A stretch of DNA of 64,000 bases from Cephalotus follicularis (taxonomy: Eukaryota > Streptophyta > Magnoliopsida > Oxalidales > Cephalotaceae): NCBI GenBank assembly GCA_001972305.1, contig BDDD01000567.1, positions 186,001 through 250,000 of the forward strand, read 5' to 3'. The stretch's first letter is position 1, and the number at the start of each line of letters is the position of its first letter. The position numbers and the translations under genes were made by a program. Shown here piece after piece: positions 6,078 to 60,262 of this stretch. The notes under the pieces were generated by a model. The model saw nothing but the letters and a program-made list of their open reading frames with translations. It searched no databases and was not told where the DNA came from.

Positions 6078-7341
6078 TGAAAAAAATATACAAGAAAGGG
6101 GGGGGGGGGGGAAGAATGGATATATGAACTTTTTAAGACTTTTTCAAAGTTTTTATCAAACAATCAATTAAGATGACAAATATGCCAACAATATCATATG
6201 AACAATCAAAGTAAGAACTCACAAACAAGCAAATAATTGAAGTAAAGAGAAAGTGAGAATTGCAAACTCAGTTTCATAGTGGTTCGGTTTAACTCTTGCC
6301 TAAGTCTACTTTTTCCAAGGTCCTCCTTGACTCCCCACTTGAATTCTCCTGGATACAGCAGTGATTTGGTTTTCGGATACAAATTCTAACACCTTTAAAA
6401 TTCAGTAATTGTCCTCAACACTAGGCCTCTTCGCTATAGCCTCTCAAGAGTTCACTTCTTTTTTTCACAACTACAGAGAATTAAAATGATTTGTGTTTAC
6501 AAAGAAAGACCTCTGTCTAGGCCAGATATGCAACAAAGAATTTTACTCTATCACTCAATTACAAAATGTAAAAATATACAACTTTTTTAGTGTATAAGAG
6601 CTTTTTGACAATGCTTGAAGATTTTAGCTCATAATATTGTTTGCAGTTCTTCTGTGTTGCTTAGTCTCTAAAATTATGAAGAAGCTTGTTTATATAGATG
6701 AAATTCAGTCACATCACCTTTTGGAGCGTATTGGAAAATCCCTTGATTGTAGCAAAGTTTGTAAACTAGCCATTGCTTGAATTTTGTGACCCTACACATC
6801 GACTTAATTTGTCAACACGTTGACTTAATTTGTTAACACGTACACTTAATTATGACGTGGAACAAAACTTTGACCTATATTTGAAATGAGTTTGACTTGT
6901 TCAATCAATTTCCCAACACGTCAATCTATTCTTCATTACACGTTAACTTGTTCATCAATATCTCCAACACGTCAAATTAATTTGAAATAGTGTCTGAATG
7001 ATTTTGTGAAGGACTTTTTCTTCTTCACGTCGACCTCTAAGCTCTGTATGTCGACTTGGTCTTCATGTTCGACAATGTCAACTTGATAATTTTAAACGTC
7101 GACTTGTTCTTGATATGCCTCCTATACATATAAACAAATTACCAGCACGTCGACTTGTTGCCCTTACACGTCGACGTGATTTGCCAAAGTCAGTCAATTA
7201 TATTTTGAATACAATTTTTATCATTTGCAATAAAAAATAGTTTTATCTTTTAATCATCTTTTTAAATTTATACGCTTTAACATTTTTTTTTATCATCAAA
7301 ATAAACATATTAAGATTTATTAGGTTTTGAAAAACCCAACA
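6078..7341 (-). mobile_element. Ty1/copia (SIRE-like) LTR fragment 'L', 1.26 kb
   Basis: On the minus strand the right end reads TGTTGGGTTTTTCAAAACC, a start typical of SIRE/Maximus copia LTRs. The left end is followed on that strand by TGGGTATCAAAGCGG (6060-6074), a primer-binding site of the initiator-Met tRNA type, so this is a 5' LTR. A TATATAA box lies on the minus strand near 6690. A run of 12 or more G at about 6099-6111 lies inside. Beyond the primer site no gag or pol is recognised, so the element is a fragment. Its U3 carries the CACGTCGACTTG motif cluster. Confidence 0.7.
6793..7185. repeat. Motif cluster ACACGTCGACTTG in LTR L
   Basis: About ten degenerate copies of ACACGTCGACTTG (variants ACACGTTGACTTAATT, CACGTCGACC, AACGTCGACTTG) are spread over 400 bp. 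One copy, ACACGTCGACGTGA near 7167, is almost a perfect palindrome around GTCGAC. Most variants differ by C-to-T or G-to-A changes, as expected of old methylated CG sites. Confidence 0.7.
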
Positions 7342-7559
7342 CATTGGAAGAAGAAGGATAAAGCTGACCCTTCGCCTTATGTAGTGGAGAGGATTGTGTG
7401 TTACAAATTACAATCTTTTAGTTTTAATATTGTAAAATTACTAATTTAGTTAACCGCTAAGAATGGTATTTTCTGTAAGAAACGTATAGGTCTACGACTA
7501 GGTCATCTTGACAGTCTATGGAGGGAGCAGATCGTCGGCTGCCACCATTTCAAGTTTTA
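7342..7559. other. Unassigned sequence
   Basis: Lies between LTR L and the probable CACTA remnant. Plus-strand frames contain short stretches that look protein-like but match nothing I can name. No structure is visible. Confidence 0.3.
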
Positions 7560-8262
7560 GCATGGATCAAAGCTACCAGAAGAGTGCGAATGGGCGTGAT
7601 CAATAGGTTAGTCCATTATATGTCCTCTGCCAAGATTCTAGTGCAGTGACATCGTCCTTGACCATTTGTTAGTGAGAGTCAGGTCCCACTTATGGAGGCA
7701 CCACAACCTTCTGGCAATGTCGTAATTTCGGAGTTGGTTCTTGAGGATTTTAGAGAGTTACAAAACGAGTTTAGACAGATGATGTCTCAGCTGACCTCCA
7801 TGATCATGACGTAGATGGGATTGTATTGATCCTTACCAAATGATACCAATCCTCTCTTGTTGTTAGTTTTTTTTATTTATGATTTTGCCTACCATGATGA
7901 CGATTTCTCATATACCGTGTTGACTTTGAAGTATCTGATACAATATATATTATCTGATGAAGTTTTATGTTGTCTGTTTTGTGTTGATGATATGAAATAT
8001 AACAATTTATGTTCATTTCACGATTGAGTCTATGTGGTGATTGAGATAAAAACTGTGTCTCTTTTCTATGGGTTTTGAAAGAAAATAAATGCCCCCGGGC
8101 CATTATTTTTCAAAGTGGTGATGACATCGCCAAACCATCTTATACTATGATGACTGATATTGGCGAGGGCAAATAACTTCGCCACACCTGTCTCCCTTGT
8201 CAACAGTGAGGAAGGCAATGGCGAGGGCAGATGCCATTGTTCTTGCCTTGTTCTCTTATAGC
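7560..8262 (+). mobile_element. Probable decayed CACTA (En/Spm) fragment
   Basis: A short plus-strand frame around 7690-7815 (VISELVLEDFRELQNEFRQMMSQLTSM) has a heptad-like helical pattern, as at the C-terminal end of plant CACTA TnpA-type proteins. It is followed at 8150-8240 by copies of GGCGAGGGCA and GGCAATGGCGAGGGCA. That is the subterminal motif of the clear CACTA element at 57174-58474. The 3' end near 8262 (TTCTCTTATAGC) only weakly resembles a CACTA terminus and no target duplication was found. The assignment rests mainly on the shared motif. Confidence 0.4.
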
Positions 8263-8403
8263 TATAGTTTTGGGAAGATGTAGCCACGAAGTTATTCATT
8301 GGGTTTCCTATTTGCTGCTATAATGGTGGTCATTGATCAGATTTCCATATTTTCTCCCTCGCCATCCAGATTTAATTCCTAAGAAGTAGTTGAAGTTTTC
8401 GCT

Positions 8404-20065: not shown

Positions 20066-22021
20066 TTTTAGTATATATAACCTATAGGAAACATTTAGAG
20101 GTTATTAGCAAATATTCCATTTTTCCATTTTCCATGTTACTACCATAACACTTGGTCTTTAGTGCTTATGGTTCTTCCCACTATTCTAATCATATCCCAC
20201 ACCTCCATGTGGAATTTGGGAGATCTAATCTCCTAGTGGGGATTGGAATCTATCTCAACATATTATGGCCTCAGCTTTAGCATCACAAACCATAACACCC
20301 AAGATAGGTAGGCTCATCTGCCAATTTACACAGCTCAGAATCTAATCCCACACGCCCGTGTAAGATCCAATCATAGATTCGGCATACGAGCTCAATATGA
20401 TCTTAGCTTTAGCATGACAAACCATTAGAGCCAATATAAGTCTACACTCATAGCCCTCAAAGTAATACATATGTTTTGCACTCACACGTTTATGTGTCCA
20501 AGTGCAAAACATTGTGATTTCCTTGCAGTATCTAATACTGACGTTGACATGACACCAAACAGATCGCAGACCTTAGCTTTAGCTAACAAACCCACAATCT
20601 GCCAATGCCACTCAACGAGAACTATGGAAGGCCACGTCGGATCACTCTTAGTGTCCCTGGCGTTAAGACTTATTATTTCATCCTTTGGAGGGATTTTAGG
20701 TCTCACATTTTTAATTAAGCCGATCCATTAATTAATTCATTGGTTATTGTAGCCAAATCCAATTAATTACGGCTTACATACAATGACGTAATTGGACAAA
20801 TTGTCCAACACATGCATCCAAAGTACAACATAAAACATGGTTAGGCTAGGGACAATCCTATAGTGATTCACATGAGACAATGTGATCACTGAGTCTCCTA
20901 GGTGAACTATTTAATTATACTTTATTACAAATAATACCATGCATCCATGGTCTTCATCTTGGTCTTGAAACTTTCTTGATCTTCCTCTCCATCGATTCTC
21001 CTCCTTATTGCTTACAAAGCTTTTAATAAAATTACAATTAAATTTTAAAGAAAAGAATCTATCCCAGAGAGGAATCAAAAAGAAATTAAGGTGCTCGCAG
21101 GTCACCAAATTACAAACCCAATAAAAATAATAAAGCAAATTTAAACATCCACGAAAGAAACGAAAACTAGGTCATGTCCCATGTCCCATAGCCTACCAAC
21201 ATGCATATCATATCCAAAATTATATATAATATAAAATTGAATGAAAACTTAACAATTTTAATTTTCGATGGCTAATTGAATAAAGTGTGGCAGAATATGG
21301 TAAAACTCTCACTGAATTAATCAAAATCCAGCATCACAGGGATTACAAACCATATTAATCCAAAGACATGATCCACCAATTATGGATCATCATTATGCCG
21401 GGAATAATGAAAACGTGTTAACAAAATTTTAATTTCTAAAATCAAATCCTGTTTCCTTTCTTGTCACCATGACAAAAATGGATGTTTCCATTTCCTGTTT
21501 GCATAATTTATTTATCCAATGATGTGATCCACCAAATGTGGATCACCATTAAGCCAGCCAAAATGGAAAACATGTTAATGGGATTTCATTTCATGAATAG
21601 AAATCCCGTTTTCCATCTTTGGCGCCATATCCATTTATAATAGGCATGACTTATGGATTTTCCATTTTGTTATTGCATTTTCCCGTCGAAAGCGTCGATA
21701 CCTTATCCTATGCGTCGGCGGTTACCAGCTAAGCGTCGATGCTTAGCGTAACCAGCTGCGCTTTAGACAAAGCGTCATTGCCCAAACCACTAAGCTTTGA
21801 CGCTCAATGCAAAGCGCCAACGCTCTTCACATAAGCGCCAACGCTCAAGGTTTTCTTTCAGCGCTTATGCCTAACCTTTAACGCTTAATGTGTAACTGTC
21901 GACGGTTTATGAGAAACCGTCTACGGTTATTCAATATCAGCCACACATTTTAATCCAAAACAACCATAAAAAACCAAAAACAATGTTTAACTGGTGTTCA
22001 TTAGTACTCTCTGATACCAAT
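20066..22021 (-). other. Long untranslated leader of copia B
   Basis: About 2 kb between the gag start and the 5' LTR. It has no credible coding frame. It carries two further copies of the GATCCAC..GTGGATCA hairpin module (21369 and 21523) also found in the LTRs, and a cluster of AAGCGTCGACGCTT-like motifs (21682-21930). Confidence 0.6.
21682..21930. repeat. Motif cluster AAGCGTCGACGCTT in the leader of B
   Basis: About twelve degenerate units: AAGCGTCGATACC, TGCGTCGGCGG, TAAGCGTCGATGCTTA, AAAGCGTCATTGCC, AAGCGCCAACGCT (twice), and the pair ACTGTCGACGGTTT / AAACCGTCTACGGTT. Several are close to self-complementary around TCGA. Confidence 0.7.
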
Positions 22022-22570: not shown

Positions 22571-24852
22571 TGTCACACCCCGCTTGCATTAACAACATAC
22601 AACATGGCAAATTAACAGATATCCAGCTTATACAGAGAACGATAAAATTTAAAACTTTTAAACAGACATCAAACTTGCGGAAGCATTTATATATAAGCTG
22701 AAAGCAAACGGAACCATGCGTCCCACACCACATGATTCCCACAACATCCACGGTCAAACATAGTTAAAAAAAAGCCCACAAGCGGAGCATGATCCAAAAG
22801 TCGATACAAAACCACGTTAAACATTAGTACATAAACCAAAGTACAACATGTTTACACAATGCTTTACAAAACACCTAAAGCATAAAACTCCGTCACTTCA
22901 CTGTCCGATACAGCCATGCCCGGCGATATCCAAAACGCAGCATCAATCTGCAATAGTAGGGGGGTTAGCCTTTGTCCTCACTCGGCCAAAGTCATAAAAG
23001 CAACATAAGATCAACAAAACCAAAGCATGGACGCAACATGATGCAGTACATACTATATCTCGATGCATATATATATATATGCATATGCCAAACCACGATG
23101 TCACAGTAATCACAATGTCACAATGTCACAATTCACGGTCTCAAACAAGTCCAAAGGACTACACAATACACGGTTCACGATGGGTACGAAGAGCGTTGCC
23201 AACTCCTGGCCCCAACGTCGTACATCCCGTCATCGGCCCCGACTCCGGACGGCACAAAGCAGGTCACAATGCAATGAGTCACCCTGCCATCTCCTGGCCC
23301 CTGAGTCGACCCGGCCACTAGTCATCGCTGGCATCTCCGCCACGCAACTACTACGGCCACAATCAAAATCACAATCAGCAGTCACAATCACAGTCATCTC
23401 AATCACAATCACAGTCATCTCGATGCTCAAAACAGTTTTCCAAGTAGTTTATAAAACAAAATACCTGAAAACAAACTCATTTTCACGATGCCACGGTTCT
23501 CGGTTCTCAATATCACAAAACTCAGTTCACGGTGTTTTTGGAAGTCATTTTCACGGTTCAAAAGTATATATTTTGTCAAAACATATATTTTCGTGTAAAG
23601 TAATGATTTTCATTAAACTACATGCACTTCCAGAAAGATGGTATAACAGTTGAAACTCAATAATTACAATGCTCAAAACAGTTTATAAAGCTTCACGAAG
23701 CAAAACATCACAATACACGATGCATACATATGTTCACGGGGCAAAATAGGCCCTAACAGTCGGCTGCCTCCCACTGGCAGTCAGTTGTTCCCCTCAAAGT
23801 AGCCGGCTGCCCTACCCAAGTAGTCGGCTACACAACCAGACAATCGGCTGTCTATCTAGATAGTCGGCTGCCCACACTTGACAGTCGGCTGGCCCTCAGG
23901 ACAGTCGGCTGTCCATACCCCCACAGTCGGCTGCTGACCTATAGCAGTCGACTACACAAACTCTGCAGACATTTTCCTGGAGATGAACATGGGCAGTCGA
24001 CTGGCCTCCCAAGAATAGTCGACTGGACCCATAGGCAGTCGACTGCCCAACGCGGGCAGTCGGCTGGATTCTGCAGCAGATGTTAAAACCAGCGGCTAAA
24101 ACCAGCCACAACACACACCCAACATAACCCAAAACATCACATTTATGCACACACACGTTCCAGGCTCACAATATAACGTAAACATGCATTTCATTTCATG
24201 AAAACATTAACAATTGAAATTAAGTTACAAAAATGACTTTCCCCCTACCTTAGAACTCCAAGTTAGGAGCTGCAATCCACCTCTTTAAGTCCAAATCCGA
24301 GGCTTTTGCACTCCCTAACACGTTCAGCAACCTCCAACAGGTCCGATCCTCCACTGTCAAACCTCCAAGCTTCCACGGTTCAATACACAAGCTCCGTATC
24401 CTCAACACACACACACACTTTCACTCTCAAACTCACAAACACTCTTGAAAAATAGAGAAAAGATGGAGATTGAGGAGAGAAAAGCTGTGTTTTTATGGAG
24501 AAGGCTCGGCCCCTCCTCTGCCATCTGCCCATAAAAACCAAAACATCACACTTTTGTCACTTAAAGGCTGACAGCACGTGGGCTGTCTGGCGCATGGCAG
24601 TCGGCTGTTTCTGCCGACACTCCCACCAGTCGGTTGCTTCCTCACAGCAGTTGGCTGCCACGCCTCAGCAAGGGATCCAGTCGGCTGCATCCCTGTGGCA
24701 GTCGGCTGCCCCCTGCACAACAACACACCAACTCACTTTCTTGCAACATTTCAACACACAAAAGAGGGGAAAACACGGTTCTCATTAACACAAGGTGTAA
24801 AATTACATTGGAAAAGCAATATTACACATTAATGAAAACCCTGGGCGTTACA
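22571..24852 (-). mobile_element. Solo LTR 'N', Ty3/gypsy type, 2.3 kb, inside LTR of B
   Basis: Starts TGTCACACCCCGC, ends GGGCGTTACA, and is flanked by GTGGA on both sides (22566-22570 and 24853-24857). Read on the minus strand it begins TGTAACGCCCAGGGTTTTCAT and ends GCGGGGTGTGACA. It is related to the LTR of element J: both contain GCCGAGTGAGGACAAAGGCT and a GCCAGCGATGACTAGTGGC block. There is no primer site or coding sequence. It is the innermost layer of A > B > N and so younger than both hosts. Confidence 0.9.
23757..24712. repeat. CAGTCGGCTG / CAGTCGACTG motif clusters in solo LTR N
   Basis: About fourteen copies lie at 23757-24072, spaced roughly 15-35 bases apart, and about five more at 24598-24712. 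The CAGTCGACTG form (near 24000, 24040) is a perfect palindrome; the TCGGCTG form breaks it at one base. The spacers between copies are not conserved, so this is an array of a short word rather than an ordinary tandem repeat. Confidence 0.8.
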
Positions 24853-28203: not shown

Positions 28204-30818
28204 TGTAATACCCTGCTTGTTCGTTTGCATATTTTCGGACCTTTAAATCTGTTTGTCATGGGCTTTTAATCTGTTGTGTTATGAAATCCGTTTACTTTGT
28301 TTTGGGTCTATGTCTTTTGGGCTAACTGATACCAGCCTTTACTTTGGGTATGTTAGTATGTGTATGCATGAGTAAGTTTTGTTTCACGTCATTTTATTTT
28401 ATTTTACAAATCCGTTTTTAATTAATTTAAATTATTATAAACCAATCTTTTATTTTAAAACAAATTCCCTTTTTCTCTCTTCCAATCCCGTATCTTTCTC
28501 CCTCTTTTACTCCCTCGCTGATTTCTCTCCCTCTTTCCAATTCTTTCTCCTAAAAATCCTCCTCTCTTCCTTATCCATCAGATTTTATCTCTTCTTTTCC
28601 TTATCTCAGTAGATTTGGTCTCTCTTTTCTGTTTAAGAATGGTTTTGGTTCATTGTTTTATGCCATCTGTTTCTCTTGTGCCGTGTCTTGCCAACTGGGA
28701 ATTCTTTGTGTTCTCTGTACGTTTGCTTCATAAAAAATCAGCCATTTTTAAGTTTCGGAAATCATTGTGTTAATTAAACAGTTTTGTGTCACCATTACAG
28801 GTTAGTTATCTCATTTTGCTGTAATGGTTTGTCATGGTTCTTTACAAATCTGTTGTATGTTCTCATTGGTTGTTAGAAGTTGGTTTGATTCTAGTCACAC
28901 TATATTCTGTCATGGTTTCTGAATTTGTTAATCAGTTCTTAGGCATCTGTATAGTTGGTGACAGGTTTTGATAACTGTTAATGGCATTTGACAGAAAATT
29001 GGACTATAAATATGTATGCATGTGATTAAACTCATCTCTCTTTTCAAAGCTTAACCACTATCTATATACTTCGTTGGAATTTTGTGTTCGTTTACTGTTT
29101 TTATACCATATAATGTCTTATGTATATGGTTATAGTCCTCTGGTATCATGTTATTCAGGTGTTGACAGATTTCTGCATAGGATTGTTAGATTTTGCTGTC
29201 TGTCGTCCAGAACAGTCGGCTGTTCTTCTGGACAGTCGGCTGTTAAGCCTTGAGTAGTCAGCTATCTGTATGATCAGTCGGCTGATATGTCTTGCATAGT
29301 TGATTGGACCTCTATCACAATCGACTCGCTGCAGTCTAGTTTGTGTAGTCGGCTGGCCCTGTTGGATAGTCGACTGCCAAGTTTACAACAGTTGATTGGA
29401 GCTCTGTAACAGTCGGCTAGTTTGTCCAGGAAATTTCTGTTTTTGAGTTCTCTTATCCGTTTGTTCTTCTAATTAATCGGGGTCTGTTTTAAACACCGTA
29501 ATAATTCTGATTTATGTCTACAATGTTTTTCAGATCCTTATATGAATGATTTTGTATCTTTTAGATTTTTGTGCTGTGAGGGGCAGTTAGATTTTATCAA
29601 CCATTTCGTAAGTTATATTCTGTGATCGCATAAGGTACGGATACTTTTTCCTCTTTGACATTCTCTTTGATAAATTCAGTTTTGTTTTGTGAATGGATGT
29701 TCACTCCTTGATATGTTTCGGAAATGAAGTCAGTTTTGACATCTTTGCGAAATTAAATGTTCCTAGCTTTATATTTTGCTATGACTTATGATATGATCAT
29801 CTCTTTTATGGTAAAAATAAATGAGTTGATTTCTGATTATGAAAATATGTGCAATGTGCAAAATGATATCGGTTGATAACGATTTTGGATATGTTTCGAA
29901 AAAGCCTTTCCATATGTGTTCTAAATTGATAAAATCAATGCTTTCGAAATGGTGAAGTACTGAGTTTGTACCCACTTATGGGGCGTACCATAGTCATGCC
30001 ATAGGCCTGGCACGGGGACATGACACTTCCGTAGCGGTGTGATTAGCCTACGGCGTCTCTCTATGTTGTGATAATCCCATGAGGAGGATTATGGATCCGC
30101 TATTTATGATAGAGGCATATGGATCGATCATAGGTATATGATATGTGATATGATATGTTATGAGAATTGATTATGTAATGTCGTACACTTTAATTCTATT
30201 TGGTATGTGGAATTAGAACCTCTCTTGCAATATGTGTTCTGATATGTGATATGTTATGTGGCTCAGTATGGAATTTAAGGTTTGAAAGGTATGCTTATGT
30301 TTTTGAAAGTTATGGATTTGGTTTATATGAAAATGCTGAGGTAATTTATAAACAATGTTTAAACTTGTTATTGCTTAAGATTTCTGTTTTGAGGTAACTT
30401 TTGAAATCTTACTGCTTATAAAGTATCGTTTACTGTTTTTACATTCTTTATTCGTACTGAGATTTGCTCAGCCGCGTTTTTGTTTCCATGCGGCAGGTTA
30501 TCAGGAGCACCGGGGTAGTTTGTGATGAGGGATGTCTACCTTATGTCAGAGGATCTTATAGGAGTGTGATCCTACTATGTTTCTGTTAGGGCTAGTCTGT
30601 GAACAATAAGTTACTTTTGGTTTAAGATTTCAGTATTTGACTTATGGATTATGTTTAAGATTTCAGACTATGTTTAGTTCAGTTATGTTATCAGATTATG
30701 CTATGTTTTGACCACCACGTATTTTGGAAATAAATTTATGCATATGTTCAATTAAGATATGATCTGTTAGGTTATGTATTATGAAATATAATGGCTCCCA
30801 TCATTCGGTGGTGTTACA
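28204..30818 (+). repeat. 5' LTR of element C
   Basis: 2.6 kb, starts TGTAATACCCTG and ends GGTGGTGTTACA. TATAAAT is at 29005-29011. It includes the CAGTCGGCTG cluster at 29214-29431 and a block (ACTGAGATTTGCTCAGCCGC, about 30457) also present, reversed, in solo LTR K. That makes K a relative on the minus strand. Confidence 0.9.
29214..29431. repeat. CAGTCGGCTG motif cluster in 5' LTR of C
   Basis: About ten copies or relics (CAGTCGGCTG, TAGTCGACTG, CAATCGACT, CAGTTGATTG) lie shortly after the TATA box. Relics differ mainly by CG-to-TG or CA changes. The same word fills part of solo LTR N, whose remaining sequence is only distantly similar. Confidence 0.8.
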
Positions 30819-38062: not shown

Positions 38063-38683
38063 AAGATGACCGAATAGGTCACCACTACCGAGATGACCGA
38101 ATAGGTCACCACTGATGGAGATGACTGCAAAGGTCACCCACAGGAGATGATTGTAAAGGTCACCCAAATTGAGATAACCGTGAGGGCTATTGGCTATTGA
38201 ATACTATTGATTGTTATTGATTGTATATAGTTATTGATTGTATATGGATATTGATGGTATGGTAGCTGAAGATACTAGCGTCAGAGAAGGACTACCTTCT
38301 CTTCTCTTTCCTGCTCTACTTACGAACGCTACTTTAGTCTGTCAGTAAAATAAGGGCCTCTACCTAGGATGCTAAGAACGCCTAGTCTGCCATCTCAACA
38401 GAGAATTCCGAGAAGGGCTTATATATTCTCGGAAAGGATTTTGGAATGATATGGATGCTAAATGGGTATGGAATTGATTATGGAATCGTATGGTTATAGT
38501 ATGGAATGGTATTCCTATGGTTATGGAATTGAATTGGTTATGGGTAATTGTAGTTGTTGGGGAGATTGTTGACGTTGAGTCTCAATCCTAAGTTTTAATG
38601 ATTACAAATTTGCATTTAACTTTGTTGCTTAATGTGCAAGACGTTAGAAAGCTTCAACATAAGGCAAAATATCAACTGCCAGT

Positions 38684-39142
38684 AAAGACATCGACCTCTT
38701 CTGTAAAAGACATCGACGCCTTTGATCCAGCAAAGCTACAGGCCACTTTTTGTGAAAGACATCGATCCCTTTCAACAAAGAAGTCGACGTCTTTAGTGCC
38801 CAAAGTTACAGGTCAAATTTCAGTGAAGACATCGATCCATACAAGCAAAGACATCGACGTCCGTACGAAAGAGATCGATCCCTTTCCTAAAACATCGATG
38901 TCTTTCTAGACCAAACTGTAAAAACCAGAAAAGACATCGACCCCTACAGATGAAGTCGATGTGATGCTCAAAGACTCAAATGCCTGGAGATTTCCCAGAA
39001 ATGACATCGACGCCTTTAAAAAGACATCGACGTCTTTTTAAATGAATTGACCCGGGAAACACGGAACGGCTAGTTGGCACACTTACAATGACTAGTAACA
39101 GTCAAAGACATCGACGCCTTTTCAATGACATCGACGTCTTTC
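38684..39142. repeat. AAAGACATCGACGTCTTT motif cluster in 5' LTR of D
   Basis: More than a dozen units (AAGACATCGACCTC, AAGACATCGACGCCTTT, AAGACATCGATCC, AAGTCGACGTCTTT, AAAGACATCGACGTCTTT) lie within 460 bases of the U3 part. The full 18-mer is self-complementary except at one position pair. The 3' LTR carries the same set at 41452-41890. Confidence 0.8.
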
Positions 39143-39499
39143 TGTCAGCAGAAACAAAAACAAGAGTTGCAACAACACATTTTAATATCCAAAGTGCCCA
39201 AGACTTTTGCAACGGCTATAATCTAAATGAAGCTATATATAGAGGCCAAGAAACAAGATTTCAGTGACTTGAGAGAAGAGGAACAACTCTTGAACATCCA
39301 ATCACAAAAGCTCATCTTGCACATCTACAAACAAAAGAGAAAGACATCAAGCTAGAGTTTTACACTTTCACATCCAAAGCTTGCAACTAAATTACACTTT
39401 CATATCCAACCTTTGAGAGGTTATTTGTAAACACAAACTATCTTTACAAATCCTTCTTTGTAAAAAGGGTGTTAAAACCCTTGGTGAAAATTTAGAGGG

Positions 39500-39640
39500 G
39501 AGTGAACCCTTGTAAGGTGTTTGATTGATTTGCACCCGGAACCCAAAATCAAGTGTAAGGTGTTTGATTGATTTGCACCCAGAACCCAAAATCAAGTGTA
39601 AGGTGGTTTACTTTGATTTGCACCCGTAAGCCGAAAATCA
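39500..39640. repeat. About 45-bp tandem repeat near the 3' side of the 5' LTR of D
   Basis: Three copies of a unit containing GTGTAAGGTG, TTTGATTGATTTGCACCC and AACCCAAAATCAA stand in a row. The same triple is found in the 3' LTR at about 42265-42390. Confidence 0.75.
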
Positions 39641-39660
39641 AAGGTTGCTAGTGGTACCTA

Positions 39661-41043
39661 GTGGAATCTCAAGGGGTTCTTGAGAAAGTAGAAATAGGCA
39701 CGGATTTGCCGAACCACTATAAATTCGTTTGCACACTCTCTAACTTTTATCTCTTTACTTACTATTGTATTGATTGTTTTCTTGTGTGCTTGTTGATGCA
39801 TGATAATGAATGTATTAGTGATATGTTTTCTCGATTTACTACTATTATTAATTCTCTTAAGAATCTTGGCAAATCATATCCTAATCAAGAACTTGTAAGA
39901 AAAATCTTAAGGTGCTTACCGAAGAGTTGGATGCCTAAGGTGACGGCCATTGAGGAGGCTAAAGATCTCTCCACTCTCCCACTTGAACAACTTCTAGGCT
40001 CCTTGATGACACATGAGACAACAATGAAGAATCATGAGAATGTGGAAGTCAAGAAGAAGAAGTCAATTGCTCTAAAAGCTTCAAAGGAAGATAGTGAAAG
40101 TGATGAAGATGGAGATGTGGCACTTATCACTTCCCAATTTATAAGGTTTCTCAAAAATCAAAAAGGGAAAAAGGCTTTCAAAAAGAATTTCCCTCAAGAT
40201 GAAGAGTCAAGCAAAAAGGAAGAACCAACGTGCTACGAATGCAATAAGCCCGACCACTTCAAAAATGAGTGTCCATACCTTAAAAAGAAAGAGCAATTCA
40301 AGAAAAAGAATGAATATTTCAAGAAGAAGAAAGCAATGGTAGCCACATGGTCGGATAGCGATCCCTCAAGCTCCGAAGAGGAAAGCGATGTAGAAGTTGC
40401 ACACATTGCTTACATGGCAATTGAGGATGAAGAAGAAAATGAGGTAAATTTTACTTTTGATGAATTGCAAAATGCTTATGAAATTTTATATTTTGAATAT
40501 GAAAATGTTTGCTTGAAAAAAAAGACCCTAAAGAAAAATGCTATTTCTATGACTAACGAATTAGAAATTCTAAAGAATGAAAATAGCAAATATGTGAACG
40601 AAATTGAATCTCTAAAGGATAAGAATAGCTTCTATATGAATGAGATTGATGTTTTAAGTGTTTCTTCAAAATTGTCAAATGACTTTATGGAAGAAAATGA
40701 AAAACTAAAAATTGAGATTGATGCTTTGAAGAAATCATTCTCTACTTTTTCAAATAGTAGCACTAAATTGAATAATCTTTTAGGATTACAAAGATGTGTG
40801 TTTGACAAAGCCGGTCTCGGCTATGAACAAATGAAAAATGTCAAAAATTTTAAGAATTTCTTTGTCAAGAAAAATGAGCCTAAAAGTGTTTGTAATTATT
40901 GCGGTAAATTAGGACATATTTCTACCTTTTGCATTTACAGAAATAATCTTTACTATGGTAAAACTAGAAAGATTTGGGTTCTAAAAGGAACTCTTGTGAC
41001 TAACTTGAAAGGACCCAAGTTCAAATGGGTACTAAAAACCTAA
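39661..41043 (+). CDS. Open gag frame of copia element D
   Basis: The frame of 460 codons is uninterrupted. Its first roughly 45 codons overlap LTR-derived sequence. Recognisable SIRE-type gag follows: SDMFSRFTTIINSLKNLGK near residues 55-72, then LVRKILRCLPKSWMPKVTAIEEAKDL. A knuckle CYECNKPDHFKNEC lies at about residues 191-204, lysine-rich and acidic stretches follow, then a coiled-coil region (about 265-365), and a second knuckle CNYCGKLGHISTFC near residues 418-431. Gag forms the virus-like particle in this family. Whether it is expressed cannot be judged from sequence. Confidence 0.75.
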   Translation: MESQGVLEKVEIGTDLPNHYKFVCTLSNFYLFTYYCIDCFLVCLLMHDNECISDMFSRFTTIINSLKNLGKSYPNQELVRKILRCLPKSWMPKVTAIEEAKDLSTLPLEQLLGSLMTHETTMKNHENVEVKKKKSIALKASKEDSESDEDGDVALITSQFIRFLKNQKGKKAFKKNFPQDEESSKKEEPTCYECNKPDHFKNECPYLKKKEQFKKKNEYFKKKKAMVATWSDSDPSSSEEESDVEVAHIAYMAIEDEEENEVNFTFDELQNAYEILYFEYENVCLKKKTLKKNAISMTNELEILKNENSKYVNEIESLKDKNSFYMNEIDVLSVSSKLSNDFMEENEKLKIEIDALKKSFSTFSNSSTKLNNLLGLQRCVFDKAGLGYEQMKNVKNFKNFFVKKNEPKSVCNYCGKLGHISTFCIYRNNLYYGKTRKIWVLKGTLVTNLKGPKFKWVLKT

Positions 41044-41322
41044 ACTTTGTTTTGTAGGTGTACTTGAAGTCAAGCTCAATATGTTCAAGTACATATCTTG
41101 GGGAGAATGCTTATAGAAAAATTGATAGCCTATACTAAGGGGGAGCTAGGTATGATGAATATGTTAATGATGAATATGTTAAGGGGGAGTTAGATATCAC
41201 ATTTAGGGGGAGTATATCTAAGTGTTTATGTTGATATCTAAAAGAAAATCTTTTTGCTTTGAAATGTCATATATTTTTTCCATAATGAAGCAAATTTTTG
41301 TAATCATCAAAAAGGGGGAGAT

Positions 41323-42615
41323 TGTTGGGGAGATTGTTGACGTTGAGTCTCAATCCTAAGTTTTAATGATTACAAATTTGCATTTAACTTTGTTGCTTAA
41401 TGTGCAAGACGTTAGAAAGCTTCAACATAAGGCAAAATATCAACTGCCAGCAAAGACATCGACCTCTTATGCAAAAAACATCGACGCCTTTGATCCAGCA
41501 AAGCTACAGGCCACTTTTTGTGAAAGACATCGATCCCTTTCAACAAACAAGTCGACGTCTTTAGTGCCCAAAGTTACAGGTCAAATTTCAGTGAAGACAT
41601 CGATCCATACAAGCAAAGACATCGACGTCCGTACGAAAGACATCGACGTCTTTCTAGACCAAACTGCAAAAACCAGAAAAGACATCGACCCCTACAGATG
41701 AAGTCGATGTGATGCTCAAAGACTCAAATGCCTGGAGATTTCCCAGAAATGACATCGACGCCTTTAAAAAGACATCGACGTCTTTTTAAATGAATTGACC
41801 CGGGAAACACGGAACGGCTAGTTGGCGCACTTACAACGACTAGTAACAGTCAAAGACATCGACGCCTTTCCAATGACATCGACGTCTTTCTGTCAGCAGA
41901 AACAAAAACAAGAGTTGCAACAACACATTTTAATATCCAAAGTGCCCAAGACTTTTGCAACGGCATAATCTAAATGAAGCTATATATAGAGGCCAAGAAA
42001 CAAGATTTCAGTGACTTGAGAGAAGAGGAACAACTCTTGAACATCCAATCACAAAATCTCATCTTGCACATCTACAAACAAAAGAGAAAGACATCAAGCT
42101 AGAGTTTTACACTTTCACATTCAAAGCTTGCAACTAGTTTACACTTTCATATCCAACCTTTGAGAGGTTATTTGTAAACACAAACTATCTTTACAAATCC
42201 TTCTTTGTAAAAAGGGTGTTAAAACCCTTGGTGAGAATTTAGAGGGGAGTTAACCCTTGTAAGGTGTTTGATTGATTTGCACCCGGAACCCAAAATCAAG
42301 TGTAAGGTGTTTGATTGATTTGCACCCGGAACCCAAAATCAAGTGTAAGGTGGTTTACTTTGATTTGCACCCGTAAGCCGAAAATCAAAGGTTGCTAGTG
42401 GTACCTAGTGGAATCTCAAGGGGTTCTTGAGAAAGTAGACATAGGCACGGATTTGCCGAACCACTATAAATTCGTTTGCACACTCTCTAACTTTTATCTC
42501 TTTACTTACTATTGTATTGATTGTTTTCTTGTGTGCTTGTTCATAGTTTAATTTGTTTATTCCGCAAACAAATTGTTTTACTTGTTTAAAGGTTGCCATA
42601 TAGTTTTTATTTTAA
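41323..42615 (+). repeat. 3' LTR of copia element D
   Basis: About 1.3 kb, starts TGTTGGGGAGATTG straight after the purine tract. It is almost identical to the 5' LTR over the shared 1.2 kb and includes the GACATCGACGTC cluster at 41452-41890. Confidence 0.85.
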
Positions 42616-46990: not shown

Positions 46991-47144
46991 AAGAAAATTG
47001 AATTTAGCTATTTCTTTTGGACTGGAAATTTTATTGAAGTCATTGTGATATGGTTGTTCTAGGGCTTGTAATGTGAGAAAACGTTTTTGCGCATGTTTTG
47101 CAACGTTGAAAGCGTCGACTGCCAAGAATAAGCGTTGACAGTTT

Positions 47145-49555
47145 TGTGACGACCCGAATTCCCTTTTGTACTGTTCATGCGTACATCATACCGTATTGCA
47201 CTGTATTGGACCGTACTGAACTGTATTGAATTGAGGTATTCTAATACCTATTGATATTGTATTGATCACATGCATGTATAGTCGGGATTTTGGGCCGAGT
47301 TTCGGATCAATTCTTTCTCTCCTTACTCTCACATTTCTCATTTTCTCATTCTCTCTCTCTCTCTCTCCCTCTCTCTCTCCCTCTTGCTGGCAGCTCCATC
47401 TTCCACCATTGCAGCCTTGGATTGCATCTCCATCAACAAGAACAGCGATTGCAAGGAGTGGATTGGTGATTGAACAGCATAGAAACTGATTGAGTGATTG
47501 GAAGCTCAACTTTTGAAGCTTCAGTGATAAGTAGGACTTCTTTATTGAATTGCCTATTGCTTTATTGATTGATTGACTGAATTGCATGATTGATTGAGTG
47601 TTTGAGTGATTGAATTGAGTGAATTGAGGTTTTAAGGGTTTATAGCTAATCCTTGACCTAATTGTTAATTAAAGGATTGAAATTGAATTTGGAAGGTTGT
47701 AACTAGTCTTACTAACCTCAAATGACTGATTGTAAACTTTGGTTTTCAAAGAATGTCTTTTAATTGGATTTTGGCTTGAGATTGGCCCCATTTTCTACCT
47801 AAAAATCGACTTTTCCCGGGAAAGACATCGACCCTTAGCCCAAAGACGTCGATGTCTTTTTCATCTGAGTGCTATATCCTTGATTCTGCAGCAAAGACAT
47901 CGACGTCTTTCAAAGACGTCGACGTCTTTGCCTCGAGATGTCTCTCCCCTGGAAAGACATCGATGCTGAACATCGATGCGCATTCTCAGGATGTTTTTAT
48001 TGAAAAGCATCGACGCCTTTCTCCAAGGACGTCGACGTCTTTGGCCAATTCTCTACATAAATAAGGAAATACATCGATGTCTTGAAACGACATCGACGTT
48101 TTTCCATCGTTTTAAAGAGGAGTCGATGTCTTTCACCAAAGACATCGACGCCTAATGTACTGAAAGGAGTTTTTCACTGTTTTAAAGCTAGTTTTCCACT
48201 TCTTTTCACATCGCCACTTGACCGGAGCCTCACTTGAGGTGTTCAAGTGTTTGAAAACAGTTTTAATGATTGCACTGACCGATTGATTGCTTGAGTTATG
48301 AGTGTTGCTGTGAGTCTAAGTCGGTAAAATGGACGCACGTTCTCATCCCTTCATTAGGCACCACCACTTATCGTCTCTGCTTCGACGTTGTATTGATACA
48401 TTGATCGATTGCTTGTGCCATGAGTGTCGTTGTGAGTCTAAGTGGGTACGATGGATGCACGTTCCCATTTCTCCATTGGACACCACCACTTATTGACTTT
48501 ACTTAATATTGTATTGACTCGATTGATTGATTGATTGTATTGTATGGATCCTATAGAGCGACCTTATGGTTTACGTCGGCATGTTAGGTCGACTTTGTCC
48601 ACCTATTCCATCGATCGTTTCTTGTATTGTATTGTCTTGCTGACGAGCATGTGCTGACGAGCACGATTGATTGATGATTGACGCTCGCTGAGGGCCGTAG
48701 CTCCCTAACGGCATTAGTAGCTCCCTCAGTTGTAGCTCATCGAGATTGTATTGGCCCAGCCATAGGCTGGAAGATCTATGTGTTCCAGACATGATCAGTC
48801 TGAGAACCGTAGGTAGATCTCTCACCCTTTTTGAAGGACTACCTTCCGTGGGATTGATCACTGCTAACTAATTCACACTGAATTGACATCGGTCGCACGC
48901 TTTATAGGATATTGATTAATTGATTGGGTGTTTCATACACCACCATTGAGTGTCTGCCATTGATTGATTGCTTGTTATAGATCCTATCCGTATGCTCTGT
49001 TATGGGCCACTGTCATAAAGGTAGTCTGATCGCCAATTGTACATGTACATTTGCCATGTCATGCATTGATATTCTACACCGCACATTGATATTGTATTGA
49101 TTGTCACCGATATTGTACTTTGTACATGCATACATGCTGCATGGGGTTTCTGCTTAGCCACTGTGGCTAACCCCATCCTTCGGGGTGGGGCTGTGTTGTA
49201 CCTTTGTGTGCGGCATAGGTAGGGCAGTAGGTAGCAGCGGACAGAAGGATTGAAGACTCGATTGATCGCATGACTGCTTGGGTACCGCAGGACTGGTTAT
49301 GATATTGTAGTGAAGTTTGGTATGTACTGTATTGTAATACTGTATTGAAGGATTGATGATGTATTGTAAAAGACTAGTACTGTAAAAGATTTGCATTGTA
49401 TTGTATGGATGGATTGGTATTGTATCTTCCGCAAGTGTTATGTATTGCAAAGTTTTAAGTTTTTCTCATTTTTATATTGCTAGTCTTGACCATTGTATTG
49501 TGTATTGGATTGAGAGTAATACCACGTGTCCGCCCTGCAGGCACGGGGTGTTACA
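47145..49555 (+). mobile_element. Solo LTR 'G', Ty3/gypsy-type ends, 2.4 kb
   Basis: Starts TGTGACGACCCGAATTCCC, ends GCACGGGGTGTTACA, and is flanked by AGTTT exactly (47140-47144 and 49556-49560). It has a (CT)n tract at 47349-47395 and many TATTGATTGATTG-like simple runs. No coding sequence or primer site is inside. It is the innermost layer of E > F > G. It holds the best-preserved GACGTCGACGTC units in the window. Confidence 0.88.
47822..48155. repeat. AAAGACGTCGACGTCTTT motif cluster in solo LTR G
   Basis: About twelve units, among them CAAAGACGTCGACGTCTTTG at 47911-47930, a perfect 20-base palindrome. Others are AAAGACATCGACGTCTTT (47893-47910), AAGCATCGACGCCTTT and AAGGACGTCGACGTCTTT. 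It is the same word family as in the copia LTRs of element D, although G has Ty3-type ends. Confidence 0.85.
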
Positions 49556-49562
49556 AGTTTAC

Positions 49563-49806
49563 AAAGCGTCGACTGCCTATTTTAAGCTGTCGACAGTTTG
49601 CCTTGGTTATGCGGTGAAATGCCTTAAGTATCGACTAATTTCAAGACAAACGTTTTAGCCTAAAAGCGCCGACGCTTTTAACATGTTTTATCGACGCTTA
49701 AAGCATGTTTTCTTTGTTATTTCGTTAACTGGCGACGCTTGGTGGGGAAAGCGGCAGCGCTTTGAGGCCAAAGCAGCGACACTTAGCACTTAACCTCCGA
49801 CGCTTT
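49563..49806. repeat. AAAGCGTCGACGCTTT motif cluster in solo LTR F
   Basis: Units include AAAGCGTCGACTGCC, AAGCTGTCGACAGTTT (near-palindrome), AAAAGCGCCGACGCTTTT, TTATCGACGCTTAAAGC and CTCCGACGCTTTAAG. One further unit lies at 47109-47123, before G. They sit just upstream of the TATA box at 49902, so in U3. Confidence 0.75.
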
Positions 49807-52420
49807 AAGAAAAAGGACGCATGTCAAGCAACGGATGAAAGAAGAGGACACGTGTCGACTTGATGAAGAAAATGACAAAATGAAGGCGGCTTAACTTTTC
49901 CTATAAATACTGGTAACGCCTCAGTAGAAAACGTGAGGAAGAGAGAGAGTGGTCCGAGAAAGAGAAAAAGAGGGAGAGTCTGAGAGAGAAAGAAAGAGTC
50001 TGGAGAGGAAGAAAGAGAGATAGGAGAAAAGAGAAAAGTAGTGGAATTCTGCTGAAATTTTAGTGTAGAAATTATTTTAGTATAGAGAATGAGAGTTCTG
50101 CTGAGATTGGTATAAAGAAGGAAAGAGGAGAATAAAGCAAGGTAAGGAATCCTGATCACCTTTCCAGAGTATTTTATGGATGTAAAGAAAATGCTATTTT
50201 TATGCAAAAGTAATATAAGGATTCTTTCTCACTTTTCCAAAGTATTTTATTTTAGTAAGGATTCCTAATCACCTTTCTAAAGTATTTTATGGTGGTAAGG
50301 AAAAATCTTGCTTTCGTCAAAGTATTTTATAAATCATTAAATGCTGTATTTTTTGATGTTTTGCTATAGCTTTACTTACCAGTTAAAATTTACGAATTCA
50401 TTGAAATATTTACGTTAACTTTATTTACGAATTTTAGCTTTCTAAATTCGTTGAGACATTTACCTTAATGTTAATACTTTAATTTTTTTTATCATGTTTT
50501 ATGTATTCCGAAATTCTGTCAATTTCTTGATAAAATTATATGTTTATTTTTCATTATGAAAATTATGATTTTATCATTTTAATGTTTTACGTTGCTATAT
50601 GTAAACTCAGTTTTACAAATGTTGTACGAATTTATTTTTATGAATGCTTTGAGCTGATTACTCGAAGTATCAAGAAATGATTATTTTTACAAATGAGAAA
50701 AGGCAACAAACTGAGATGAACAACGACTGGATTGCGATCCAGGGTGGATTAATCTAGTAAAAGATTAATGTTATGAGCGGAGAGTGCTCACGGACATGCA
50801 TGGATGTAAGGATAGTAATCGGGGAGTGCACAATGCCCTGGTGAAGCAATGGTTCAATTGGGTCTGTTTTATGTTTTTATGACCCTTCAGTTATTTATGA
50901 AATGTTCTTATTCATGAGATATGATCAGAAAAAGAGAATGAAATGTTTTGTTTCATGAGATATGATCAGAAAAGAATGAATGAGATTTTATGAAACGTGC
51001 TGGTTTTTATACCAGAAAAGGATTTTAATGATGTTTTATTTTCAAAAGTATGGTTATGTTTCAAAGTATGGCTATGTTATATGCCAGAAAAATGTATGAT
51101 TTGAAAGCGTTTTGATAAAGAATATTAAAAAGAAATTTCTATAACGTTTTTATAACTATAATCCTTACTGGGCTATTTGAGCTCATTCCTTCCAATGTTT
51201 TTTTTCCAAATAAAATGTTTTCCAGGAGACGATCGAAGGTGAATATTGTGAGTATTAGAGAAGGTTCGTAAAGGAAGTTTTGAAAAGAAAGTATGTTATG
51301 TATCAACTACTTTTGACGTAATGAGTTTATGTTTCCGGTGTGTAACGCTATTATGACAAGTCTATGTTTTCCGCTGTGACAGATGACGGGTAGACGTAAA
51401 TGTATAGAAATAAACGCTATAATTATAATGTTTTGATACGATGATGTTGTTTAGAAATTGGTGTTGAGAGTTATAGAATATATTTGAGGCTTATAATTAT
51501 ACTGTAAATTGTTAGGAGTATGAAAATTTTTATGAAATAAGGATATTTGAAGATATCAAGTTATCAAGTATGATGTAGTGTTTCCGCTGTTATGTATCGC
51601 TGTTAAAAATGATCGTCATTATGTTTAAAGTTTTCAAGTGAGAAGTATGATAATTCTAAAAGTTGGTGTTAAAGGCTGTAAAGGTATCCTGTGAAGTTTA
51701 TGATAGAAATGATTAATGATAATTCTAAGTATATTTTGAAAATTCTGAGTTTATCGAATACGATTTAAGTAATATCATTGAATGGTTAATGATGTCACAT
51801 ATCGTTAAATGATTAAACGATTTGATGGTCAATGGTTCACCCCATGTAACGCACCGACTCTTCGAGGCTCGCTTTGAGCAATTAGCGGACTCGAATCGGG
51901 GGTGTTACATGTACACCCCTGGTGAGGGTGTGGGGTCATGACGGTTCGGACATGACAAACATATAGAAACATGAATTGAAGACAACCAGGGATGCTTCAG
52001 GATGGTTAGCCAGAAGAATTCAAGTCAAGCTGGAGATTGTTGGGTTTGTGTCATGTATTCTATTTATTGGACTTTAATGTAGTTGGGTCCAATACATGTA
52101 ATGCTAAGTAGTTTATGATTAGAATTCAGGTTTCCCTATATTTATGTCTCTTGTAATTATAAACCTATATCAGTGGATAGAGAGATAAGTGTTTAGGAGG
52201 CTGTGAAACAGACAATACCTAGAAACAAGAATCTCTGAGAGTTGAGGGAATTGTTGTGAGGATCTAATTCTTGATCGATAAAGAATAAAAGATCTCCTTA
52301 CGTGGATTCTCCGTGAACGTCGGTCAATTTGGACTGAACCACGTATAGTTGATTGTTCTTATTTGTGATTTCTTTATTATTTTTTATGCACGTCTTTCTC
52401 GAATCAATTCGTGGACAAAT

Positions 52421-54262: not shown

Positions 54263-54441
54263 TTTCTTTTTCGTTTTATACTACTGTGCACTAATGAACC
54301 TGCACGTACAGCTGTTGTCCTCAGGAGTTTTATAAGTGAAAATGTAAGGGCATAGAAAAAGAGGGCGTTGTTGTTATAATGATAATAATAGAAGGCTTCC
54401 CAAATTCTGAATGTAATGCCCCTTTGCACTTTGAAGAGGGA

Positions 54442-54575: not shown

Positions 54576-54599
54576 GAGTGTCACTTGTACAGTATTGAG

Positions 54600-56396: not shown

Positions 56397-56401
56397 AATT
56401 C

Positions 56402-57874: not shown

Positions 57875-57994
57875 ATGAAATGTGTCTATTGCTGAGAATT
57901 GTCAAATATAAACTGTTGTGGTTGCTGCTGAAATGAATTGCAGGTTTTGCTTGGAGTTTAGGGTAGAGATTTTGCTGATAGTTCTTGTTGCAGG

Positions 57995-58455
57995 TTCTAC
58001 AGAATGGCGAGGGCTCGGCGAGGGCATGGCGAGGGCATTCTGCAGAAACTGTAGACGGCGAGGGCATAAACCCTCGCCATGCCCTCGCCATGGCGAGGGA
58101 GGCGATGACAGGGCAGTCCGGGCCCTAGCCATACCCTCGCCATACCCTCGCCATGTGCCGAGGGCATAGCGAGGGCACGGCGAGGTAGGCGATGACAGGG
58201 CAGCCCAGTGCCCTAGCCATACCCTTGCCGTGCCCTGGCCATGGCGAGGGTGTGGCGAGGGGAAATAGCCCTAGCCATGCCCTCTGTGTGGCGAGGGCAG
58301 TAAATGGCGAGGGGACTCTACCCTCGCCGTACCCTCGCTGTACCCTCGCCGTACTTGCTGGCGAGGAGTAATTTGGCGAGGGTGTGGTCCCCTCGCCATG
58401 CCCTCGCCGTTGACTCAATGGCGAGGGGATGGCGAGGGGAAGTGCCCTCACCGTT
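57995..58455. repeat. CACTA subterminal repeats GGCGAGGGCA / TGCCCTCGCC
   Basis: Some thirty direct and inverted copies. In places they meet head to head as CCCTCGCCATGGCGAGGG, a perfect 18-base palindrome (near 58083-58100). They generate long spurious open frames in several phases. A few copies sit next to the left terminus (57187-57240). Confidence 0.88.
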
Positions 58456-59189
58456 GCCCCCTTTTCCTGTAGTGGTGGGCAAAGGCAAAACCCACCAAGG
58501 GGCATGCTCCCCCCGAGGCGGTCAGGGGTTGATACACCATTGAGGAGGAGAGCTGAGACTAATACATCTCAGAGGGCAGAGTCTTCCACTGCCCGGGATG
58601 GCAACAATAATCCCTGACCAGAGCATCTCGAGCACCAAGCGATGGGCGTGGATCGCCAAGGGGATGCTGAGGAGATACGCATGCGCTCCAATACCACTCA
58701 CATGACCAGAACAGTGCGGGGGAGCAGGTTGGACCACATGACCACACTGGCTGGGGAGTCATGGGTTTCTAGCAGGGCTAGGAACATAGAAAACGTTGAG
58801 CAAGCAATGAACATAAGGTTTGCTGAGATGGAGAAAAGGTTTCAAGCAGCCGAGAGGATATATGTCCGAGGTGCGCAACATTAGCGCCAACCCTTCACAT
58901 CCTAGATCATGAAGGAGCGTGTCCCTAGTGGATTTTGGTTCTCGAGTCTCCATCAATATGATGGGTCCACGGATCCCATCCAACATGTGTGCACCTACAT
59001 CCAAACCATGTGTAACACCTGGGATTTTCATATGTTGTAATTTCACGATGTAATTGCACCTTTATTGTGGATTTAATAAAATGATGGATTTCTCAACTTT
59101 GATGATGTTTTTCAAACTCTAATAATGTTGATTTTGGAGTCGAAGTGTAAAAGAATGTTAGAGTGCAATTTGGAGTTAAAACGACACAG

Positions 59190-60262
59190 TTTTGAGGCTA
59201 AAGCGCCGACGCCTTGAGTAGAAGCGTCGACGCCTAAGTGGTTAAAACGCGCGCTTAATTCAAACACATAAGCGTCGATACCTGCATGTAAATGTCGACG
59301 CTTTGAGGCGTGTTCTGTATACACACGAACAACAGATAGACATGTCGCATGGCGGCATGTTTGTGCCACTTATCAAGCGTCATGGCAGGCGCTTTGGAGA
59401 TGTGTTATGCATGCCATATAACACCAGACTTACCTGCAACAAAAGGGCATTGAATAGAGAGAGAACCTCTGAGTGCATGGCCTGTGAAAGGGGAGAAATG
59501 GACACCTGTTGCAACAGGTTTCCCAAGAGAGAGATGTGAAGAATTTAACCGAGCATGCAGAGAAAACAAAACGAAATCTGCATAAAGCCGACTCCTCTCA
59601 CCCCTCTTATTTGTTAGTGAAAGCCAGAGGGTTTAGAGACACAGAGAGTGAAAGAAGGCAGAGGGTTGAGAGAGAAAGCTCAAACCACCATTGTTGAACA
59701 AGTGGAAGTTGGAGCTTAGACAGCAACTGTTGGAACGAACCAGGGAGTTTTCAAGCAGTACCTGGGAGCTCAAAGTGACCTGTTGGGTACTAAAAGAGGA
59801 AGGCTTTTGGCTTCTAACTTGAGGCCTGAGGTAGGGGAAGCCATACTTGTATTTTGTGTTCAATAATTGGTGTTTGTTCGGTGATGTTGTGCATACTTTG
59901 TATGGCCTGTTGAATTGTTTTTTTGGTCACCAAAATTATGCTACATTGTACTGGATGTGTAATATGATATTGCATGTCGATCTTCTAGACTGTCATGTTG
60001 GATTGCATGTTATTATGTGAAATTGTTACTGTTTGGTCACGTCGTGAGGAAGAAGACGACTGCTGCTTGAAACCATCGATGCCTTGGGTAAGCATCGACA
60101 CTTTGTGCTGTGAACTGTGTTTATATATTGAATACATTTTAAACGTCAACTCCTATGGGAGGAGACATCAACGCCTAAGCACTGGAAGCGCTGACGTTAT
60201 GGGAATGGACGTCGACGCTTAAAGGACATAAGCGTCGACGCCTAAGTAAAAAACGTCGACGC
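59190..60262. repeat. AAGCGTCGACGCCTAAG motif clusters in LTR of J
   Basis: Units at 59198-59305 (AAGCGCCGACGCC, AAGCGTCGACGCCTAAG, AAGCGTCGATACC, AATGTCGACGCTTT) and 60071-60262 (CATCGATGCC, AAGCATCGACAC, GGACGTCGACGCTTAAAGG, AAGCGTCGACGCCTAAG, AACGTCGACGCTTT). Adjacent units often face each other, so the region can fold on itself. Confidence 0.78.

Follow-up and report, generated by a model that had tools for sequence, protein, structure and literature searches.

Why do unrelated long terminal repeat (LTR) retrotransposons carry clusters of short palindromic words centred on TCGA? The question is raised by a 64,000-nucleotide stretch of the Cephalotus follicularis genome (contig BDDD01000567.1, C567:186001-250000; hereafter the window), which contains nested LTR retrotransposons: the Ty3/gypsy element C, the copia elements D and B (the latter on the minus strand), the solo LTRs N and G, and element J with its J-type LTR. 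A first-pass annotation had noticed the clusters and offered three explanations, namely a common protein-binding site, exchange of cis-sequence between elements, or palindrome amplification. The first of these fits best, by inference. We propose, with a probability of roughly 0.6, that the clusters are cis-regulatory arrays common to unrelated LTR retrotransposons and made up of putative sites of one or more dimeric DNA-binding proteins.

Abundance of the palindrome clusters

The clusters were present at the places annotated in the window, inside the LTRs of the named elements with the leader of element B as the exception. In the 1.577-Gb assembly the word CAGTCGACTG was counted 197,377 times, compared with 939 for the reversed word and 231 for the CpG palindrome GACTCGAGTC of the same composition. 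Counts for AAAGACRTCGAYGTCTTT and AAGCGTCGACGCTT were 51,413 (reversed, 187) and 18,108 (reversed, 15). As these counts come from high-copy elements, they demonstrate abundance and not independent origins. Twenty 10-kb stretches at positions set in advance (200 kb, L005-L024) contained 237 sites and 33 clusters, found in 17 of the 20. Markov shuffles of this sample (five first-order, five third-order) gave 6-30 sites and two control word sets gave 22 and 26, in each case with no cluster at all.

When 8-mers made up of all four letters and with a summed count of 30 or more over the two strands were ranked, CGTCGACG was the most over-represented, with 40 places against about 0.35 expected under a first-order Markov model. 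Ranks 1-41 of the best 50 enriched 8-mers listed all came from the RTCGAY word set. A crude filter on half-kilobase bins sorted the repeated 8-mer as TCGA-type in 18 bins and as other in 38, with mis-sorting on both sides: the motif was present in different wording in at least six of the 38, and of the 18 at least three were not TCGA-type. The remaining non-TCGA repeats looked locus-specific. These results confirm that the palindrome clusters are real and genome-wide, far above chance and not local to the window. In the same 200 kb, the RY-type word CATGCATG was mildly enriched (5.6-fold), as was GCATGC (2.5-fold).

Core, dialects and spacing of the sites

The words share the core RTCGAY and differ in a few arm variants, which we call dialects. 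The K dialect reads AAAGAC-RTCGAY-GTCTTT, the G dialect AGGC-GTCGAC-GCCT, the A dialect AAGC-GTCGAC-GCTT (with longer arms, AAAG-CGTCGACG-CTTT) and the C dialect CA-GTCGAC-TG (CAGTCGACTG), with TCGG frequent. The K/G form, AAAG-R-CGTCGACG-Y-CTTT, is an A site plus one base per half. Counted on both strands of the 200-kb sample, AAAG stood one base before C[AG]TCGA 76 times, directly before it 22 times and at each of the offsets 2-7 one to three times, and A and K/G therefore resemble a single bipartite site whose halves differ by one base. In the K-type LTRs D, L023, L020, L005 and L011, which belong to lineages without detected homology, ATCGAC outnumbers GTCGAT when the sense strand is read, so that the K near-palindrome has a direction relative to transcription.

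In the window the clusters and associated features are (positions of the window):

6793..7180, plus strand: cluster in the copia LTR L of the first-pass annotation (superfamily and borders as given there), with five strict RTCGAY sites of the CACGTCGAC type and decayed ones
21690..21925, minus strand: leader of copia B, with a degenerate A-type cluster that has the primer site (22019, minus strand) on one side and gag on the other
22572..24852, minus strand: solo LTR N, J-type, inside the LTR of element B, with C-dialect clusters at 23757-24065 and 24598-24710
28204..30816, plus strand: 5′ LTR of Ty3/gypsy element C, with a C-dialect cluster at about 29213-29415
35454..38060, plus strand: 3′ LTR of Ty3/gypsy element C, with a C-dialect cluster at 36460-36670
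38555..39794 (end approximate), plus strand: 5′ LTR of copia D, with a K-dialect cluster at 38692-39140; the 3′ end of this LTR is seemingly lost
41313..41324, plus strand: polypurine tract and attachment site of the Sirevirus type, AGGGGGAG-AT-TG, ahead of the 3′ LTR of copia D (signature as given in PMC2829016)
41323..42541 (end approximate, from a pairwise match), plus strand: 3′ LTR of copia D, with a K-dialect cluster at 41450-41890 and the TATA-like TATATATA at about 41981
47100..49555, plus strand: solo LTR G of the L011 type, whose borders are inferred from that LTR, with a K-dialect cluster at 47800-48150 and a perfect 20-bp palindrome at 47911
49563..49860, no strand given: degenerate A-type cluster, probably the solo LTR F of the first-pass annotation, which gave no coordinates for it
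59011..60473, plus strand: J-type LTR of element J, starting with TGTAACACC, with A-dialect clusters at 59190-59310 and 60060-60265

The two LTRs are 93.7% identical in element C and 96.9% in element D. The LTR of element J is truncated where another LTR-like start lies, at 60474.

The statement that the best copies are perfect palindromes holds for CAAAGACGTCGACGTCTTTG, the 20-bp unit at 47911. The words listed alongside it were borne out in part: exact CAGTCGGCTG occurs 15 times in the window and AAAGACATCGACGTCTTT 4+1 times, while AAGCGTCGACGCTT has no and ACACGTCGAC one exact copy, their clusters consisting of degenerate copies. Similarly, spacers had been described as not conserved, which is correct for their sequence but not for their length, as 100 of 182 neighbour distances fell between 19 and 23 bp (range considered 12-115 bp, reduced set). 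Helical phasing was considered and not adopted. Distances above 23 bp peaked at about 10.3 bp, with a strength that none of 2000 jittered sets reached (n = 86); in a less redundant set the peak lay at about 11.0 bp (n = 77; 3 of 2000), and phasing was weak when each distinct distance in the first set was counted once (resultant at most 0.14), so that the signal is suggestive only.

Two clusters of one LTR share a dialect

Counted from the start of the LTR, the two clusters of J-type LTRs lie at approximately 150-330 and 790-1480 bp, and paired clusters within one LTR are about 0.5-1.1 kb apart. The half-site consensus of clusters 1 and 2 was GCTT/GCTT in J, L019 and L024, GTCT/GTCT in L005 and L020, GCCT/GCCT in L022 and TGCC/TGCC in N. 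For these seven LTRs the matched dialect pairing is the single best of 5040. In a reduced set, from which L019 and L024 (J clade), L058 and L063 were omitted, it was the best of 120 for five J-type LTRs, of 6 for L004, L016 and L060, and of 2 for L012 and L064; L057, L059, L061 and L062 were unused, and the L015 and L014 clusters retained one and two strict sites, respectively. A tree of the masked J-type LTRs, in which an entry with a wrong LTR start (L024b) was disregarded, grouped the three A LTRs, joined L005 with L022 and placed L020 and N each apart, giving approximately four independent dialect contrasts.

Homologous LTRs with different dialects were found in two further lineages. In lineage 3, L012 has the K dialect in both clusters and its homologues L064 (83% identity on both sides) and L063 (77-79%) have the A dialect in both, the flanks being 77-84% identical over the two comparisons. 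Several sites align in place despite different letters, and the spacers are partly alignable. In lineage 2, L004 is A-like (ACTT/GCTT) compared with the C dialect in both clusters of the homologous L016 and L058, whose outer flanks are 82-86% identical. L012 and L016 are members of the random sample, L060, L063 and L064 were chosen by the same word in both clusters, and for L004 the choice depended on a single word in a single cluster. A further candidate, L018 as a C-type LTR in the A dialect, was left unused, as the homology is limited to its 3′ part.

Carrier elements belong to both superfamilies

In the J-type element L020, open reading frames for gag, protease, reverse transcriptase, RNase H, integrase and a chromodomain occupy positions 4734-9233 between the LTRs. 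RVP_2, RVT_1, RT_RNaseH, Integrase_H2C2 and SH3_Tf2-1 scored above their cut-offs, Chromo just under (24.7 against 25.1 bits) and rve under its own. This predicted order of protease, reverse transcriptase, RNase H and integrase with a borderline chromodomain places the J-type element among the Ty3/gypsy elements of chromovirus type. No further sense open reading frame of at least 100 amino acids was present in 2187-9279 of this single element. Element C is also Ty3/gypsy. On the copia side, parts of the Sirevirus signature were recognized: the polypurine tract with attachment site in D and L007, the primer junction (CA-ATTGG-TATCAGAGC) in L023 and L014, and both in element B, the polypurine tract with one mismatch. 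D lacks the primer junction, and the signature is absent from the chromovirus L020 and gypsy element C, both of which carry clusters.

The K dialect is found in copia D and chromovirus L020 and the A type in J and, degenerate, in copia B; hence both dialects occur in both superfamilies. LTRs without detected homology have the same dialect: K is used by the LTRs of copia D, of the L011 type and of the chromovirus, and C by those of gypsy C and the J-type LTR N. The first-pass annotation had counted at least seven elements from two superfamilies. Both superfamilies do carry clusters, but N and J, which gave no direct match and are only about 50% identical in an alignment of masked LTRs, are joined into one LTR lineage via L005, L019 and L024, leaving fewer independent families in the window.

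Conservation of the motifs between copies

In the L020 family (L020 and 12 copies, from 41 matches listed including L020) identity was 0.922 in motif columns and 0.878 outside, a difference equalled in 13 of 1513 circular shifts, and CpG was kept at 269 of 288 places in motifs compared with 234 of 346 outside. The D family (10 of 41 matches listed and the window LTR pair) gave 0.923 and 0.894 (54 of 920 shifts as good), with CpG kept at 218 of 242 and 63 of 93 places. In the C family (10 of 44 matches and the window LTR pair) the CpG values were 65 of 97 in motifs and 75 of 136 outside.

Motifs that rarely mutate were rejected as the cause of this conservation, since their divergence between LTR copies was not clearly below that outside. 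Between the LTRs of one insertion, motifs diverged at a rate similar to or above that of the remaining sequence, with values in motifs and outside of 0.087 and 0.059 for C, 0.016 and 0.017 for D and 0.091 and 0.062 for L011; the inverted L016 copies gave 0.097 and 0.099. Pooled over five comparisons, CpG decay was lower in motifs (11 decayed, 55 kept) than outside (61 decayed, 131 kept; p = 0.018), and there may be a mild CpG context effect. Motifs kept between copies yet not mutation-cold in two of the three families point to selection while the lineages were active.

Arrays as putative sites of a dimeric protein

Arrayed dyad sites that are conserved, common to unrelated elements and jointly different in separate clusters are expected under selection for a dimeric binder. 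The site would be a dyad-symmetric unit of 14-20 bp with the RTCGAY core and family-specific arms, and one or more dimeric sequence-specific proteins would bind the arrays. Such a protein would be encoded by the host or supplied in trans, because the sense strand of the chromovirus L020 (one element) leaves no space for a further gene. It would promote transcription or counter silencing, or might act as an insulator, and elements would be selected to track shifts in its specificity. The cluster of D is found 100-520 bp upstream of the TATA-like box.

The binding protein is hypothetical, and several observations weigh against a dimeric binder. The J-type dialects track the LTR tree, so that there are few independent switches and 1 in 5040 overstates independence. 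As L060, L063 and L064 were selected by their words, they alone are no test of agreement, which is left to L004, L012, L016 and the J-type LTRs. Homology in lineage 2 drops to 65-78% near the clusters, which are not alignable site by site, and L060 is distant from L004 (62-66% identity). The A, K and G dialects differ by one base per half, and the D-type LTR L007, which may carry the A dialect, is degenerate, with no strict site passing the cluster filter. The C family has no motif constraint (0.863 compared with 0.861; 346 of 800 circular shifts as good), its cluster in element C lies downstream of the sole TATA-like match, and no common TATA box was seen in the J-type LTRs.

An action at the RNA level appears unlikely. 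In this view, which has been put forward for the Sirevirus LTRs of maize, LTR transcripts would fold into hairpins at the palindromes, and these hairpins would be of use to the element or give rise to small RNAs. Fold z-scores of four stretches were -0.64 and -1.79 in D, -2.31 in L020 and -3.59 in C, and small RNAs are described over palindrome-rich Sirevirus LTR regions (PMC10760457, PMC5311732). One D stretch, however, was no better folded than shuffles. Furthermore, the sense strand of K-type LTRs in three lineages mostly has ATCGAC, which leaves an A-C mismatch in a hairpin, and not GTCGAT, which would allow a G-U pair (9/1 in D, 9/0 in L023, 4/1 in L011, 6/1 in L020 and 6/1 in L005). There was little bias in L022 (6/5), L019 (2/3), J (1/2) and L024 (2/0).

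We consider it similarly improbable that the arrays arose by neutral concerted evolution, with 20-bp units multiplied by slippage or unequal exchange and homogenized by conversion in the absence of selection for binding. One extra 20-bp palindrome unit was gained in L026, 20-bp units were gained or lost in the D family, the preferred spacing is about one unit, and the C family is unconstrained. These gains agree with the palindrome amplification suggested at first, which by itself gives no account of matching dialects in two clusters: the shared dialect spans the distance between them, yet self-comparison of L020 showed no similarity between its clusters (repeats of at least 120 bp listed). 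Dialects also recur among lineages without detected homology, and motif columns are conserved in two families though not mutation-cold.

It is very unlikely that dialects spread as cassettes, with elements exchanging parts of their clusters through recombination or template switching. Unrelated lineages do share a dialect, LTR elements are nested in the window and, when left unmasked, L020 and L012 can be aligned in their K clusters for about 150 bp (62-68% identity), although the words might suffice to produce such an alignment. Motif-masked homology, however, between clusters tracks LTR lineage and not dialect (a comparison of low power because spacers are short), and the lineage 3 sites differ in place, so that the exchange of cis-sequence put forward in the annotation is not upheld.

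A wider reading, which we hold tentatively and consider less likely than not, is that both LTR superfamilies of this genome are controlled via one fast-evolving palindromic code read by a family of trans-acting proteins, with dispersed sites repeatedly rewritten upon specificity shifts; co-activation of elements, or their escape from silencing, would then depend on dialect rather than descent.

Comparison with known systems

The annotation knew of no named class for such clusters; however, the known kind is the palindromic repeated-motif (RM) boxes of Sirevirus LTRs, already described in PMC2829016. An element has eight or more of these palindromic words, clustered upstream of a TATA box either in the upper LTR half or ahead of the env gene; the words of different elements are variants of one core, and distantly related elements can have nearly the same word (PMC2829016). 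When Ty1/copia elements were compared, the boxes were specific to Sireviruses and, except for Tnd-1, CGG-CCG cored (PMC2829016). Among the boxes listed in PMC2829016, CGGTCGACCG of Vitis and ACAATCGATTGT of Tnd-1 contain the RTCGAY core found here, and a dyad-symmetric palindromic word in many copies per element is common to both cases. In contrast to RM boxes, the present clusters lack the CGG-CCG signature, their core being RTCGAY and in the C dialect partly TCGG; the dialects span Ty3/gypsy and copia, and homologous LTRs differ in dialect in both clusters together. RM boxes were reportedly followed up in maize by Bousios et al. in 2016.

The maize Sirevirus palindrome CACCGGACNNNGTCCGGTG occurs in Copia elements and is the commonest structured motif of Helitrons (PMC10760457), so that sharing of one palindromic word across unrelated element classes, as seen here, has precedent. 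Unlike the present case, it is a single word studied as RNA structure, maize Ty3 elements had no obvious structure peak, and dialect switching does not appear in the excerpts of PMC10760457. The VANDAL/VANC anti-silencing system of Arabidopsis, in which protein binding leads to loss of DNA methylation, is the known case in which motifs evolve in step and a trans factor is involved (PMC5735166, PMC10398659). Short repeated non-coding motifs evolve synchronously there and differ among related elements, which applies here too with the caveats on LTR selection, and the motif is also present on the unrelated element AT9TSD1 (PMC5735166, PMC10398659). On the other hand, the VANDAL motifs YAGTATTAY and AGTTGTCC/AC are non-palindromic, and VANDALs encode the binding protein (PMC5735166, PMC10398659), whereas chromovirus L020 (one element) has no comparable extra gene.

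The present case works like Sirevirus RM boxes and VANDAL/VANC combined and is a full member of neither. The U3 of Tnt1 also has repeated regulatory boxes that vary between subfamilies, in few copies and one superfamily, and we know of no TCGA palindromes among them. Box I of Tnt1 U3 is mentioned as symmetric in PMC2829016. No earlier report of such clusters shared with Ty3/gypsy elements, or of concerted dialect switching, was found in the open literature, as far as titles and the starts of abstracts show. To our knowledge, it is unsettled which proteins time the expression of plant LTR retrotransposons and whether VANC-like systems exist outside VANDALs. Words with hundreds of thousands of copies provide exact baits for finding the reader protein, and homologous LTRs with different dialects provide natural contrasts for testing its function.

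Other features of the window and the sample

Copia D (38555-42541) looks internally deleted, its 5′ LTR reading straight into a gag open reading frame (39652-41040); no primer site was found after the 5′ LTR and no pol open reading frame upstream of the 3′ LTR. Both D LTRs contain tandem copies of about 43 bp (39511-39641 and 42258-42388). Rfam and tRNA scans of the window gave no matches. At 46949-46960 there is a single CTGTCCGGACAG, similar to the CGG-CCG Sirevirus box, and GTCCGGAC occurs once in the window. The interval 58004-58500 is minisatellite-like, with the 8-mer CCTCGCCA 15 times in 500 bp, and contains the perfect palindrome CCCTCGCCATGGCGAGGG at 58082. On the minus strand, 52928-54280 holds an open frame of 451 amino acids with a Lipase_3 domain (E = 9.7e-37), the sole non-retrotransposon domain in ten window open reading frames scanned.

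In the sample, L016 contains an inverted pair of one LTR type (2334-4856 and 5078-7600; 88.8% identity, about 220 bp between), both with C-dialect clusters. L018 contains an exact tandem duplication of 1,824 bp (363-2186 and 2187-4010) including an LTR end and primer site, which is either a recent duplication or an assembly artefact.

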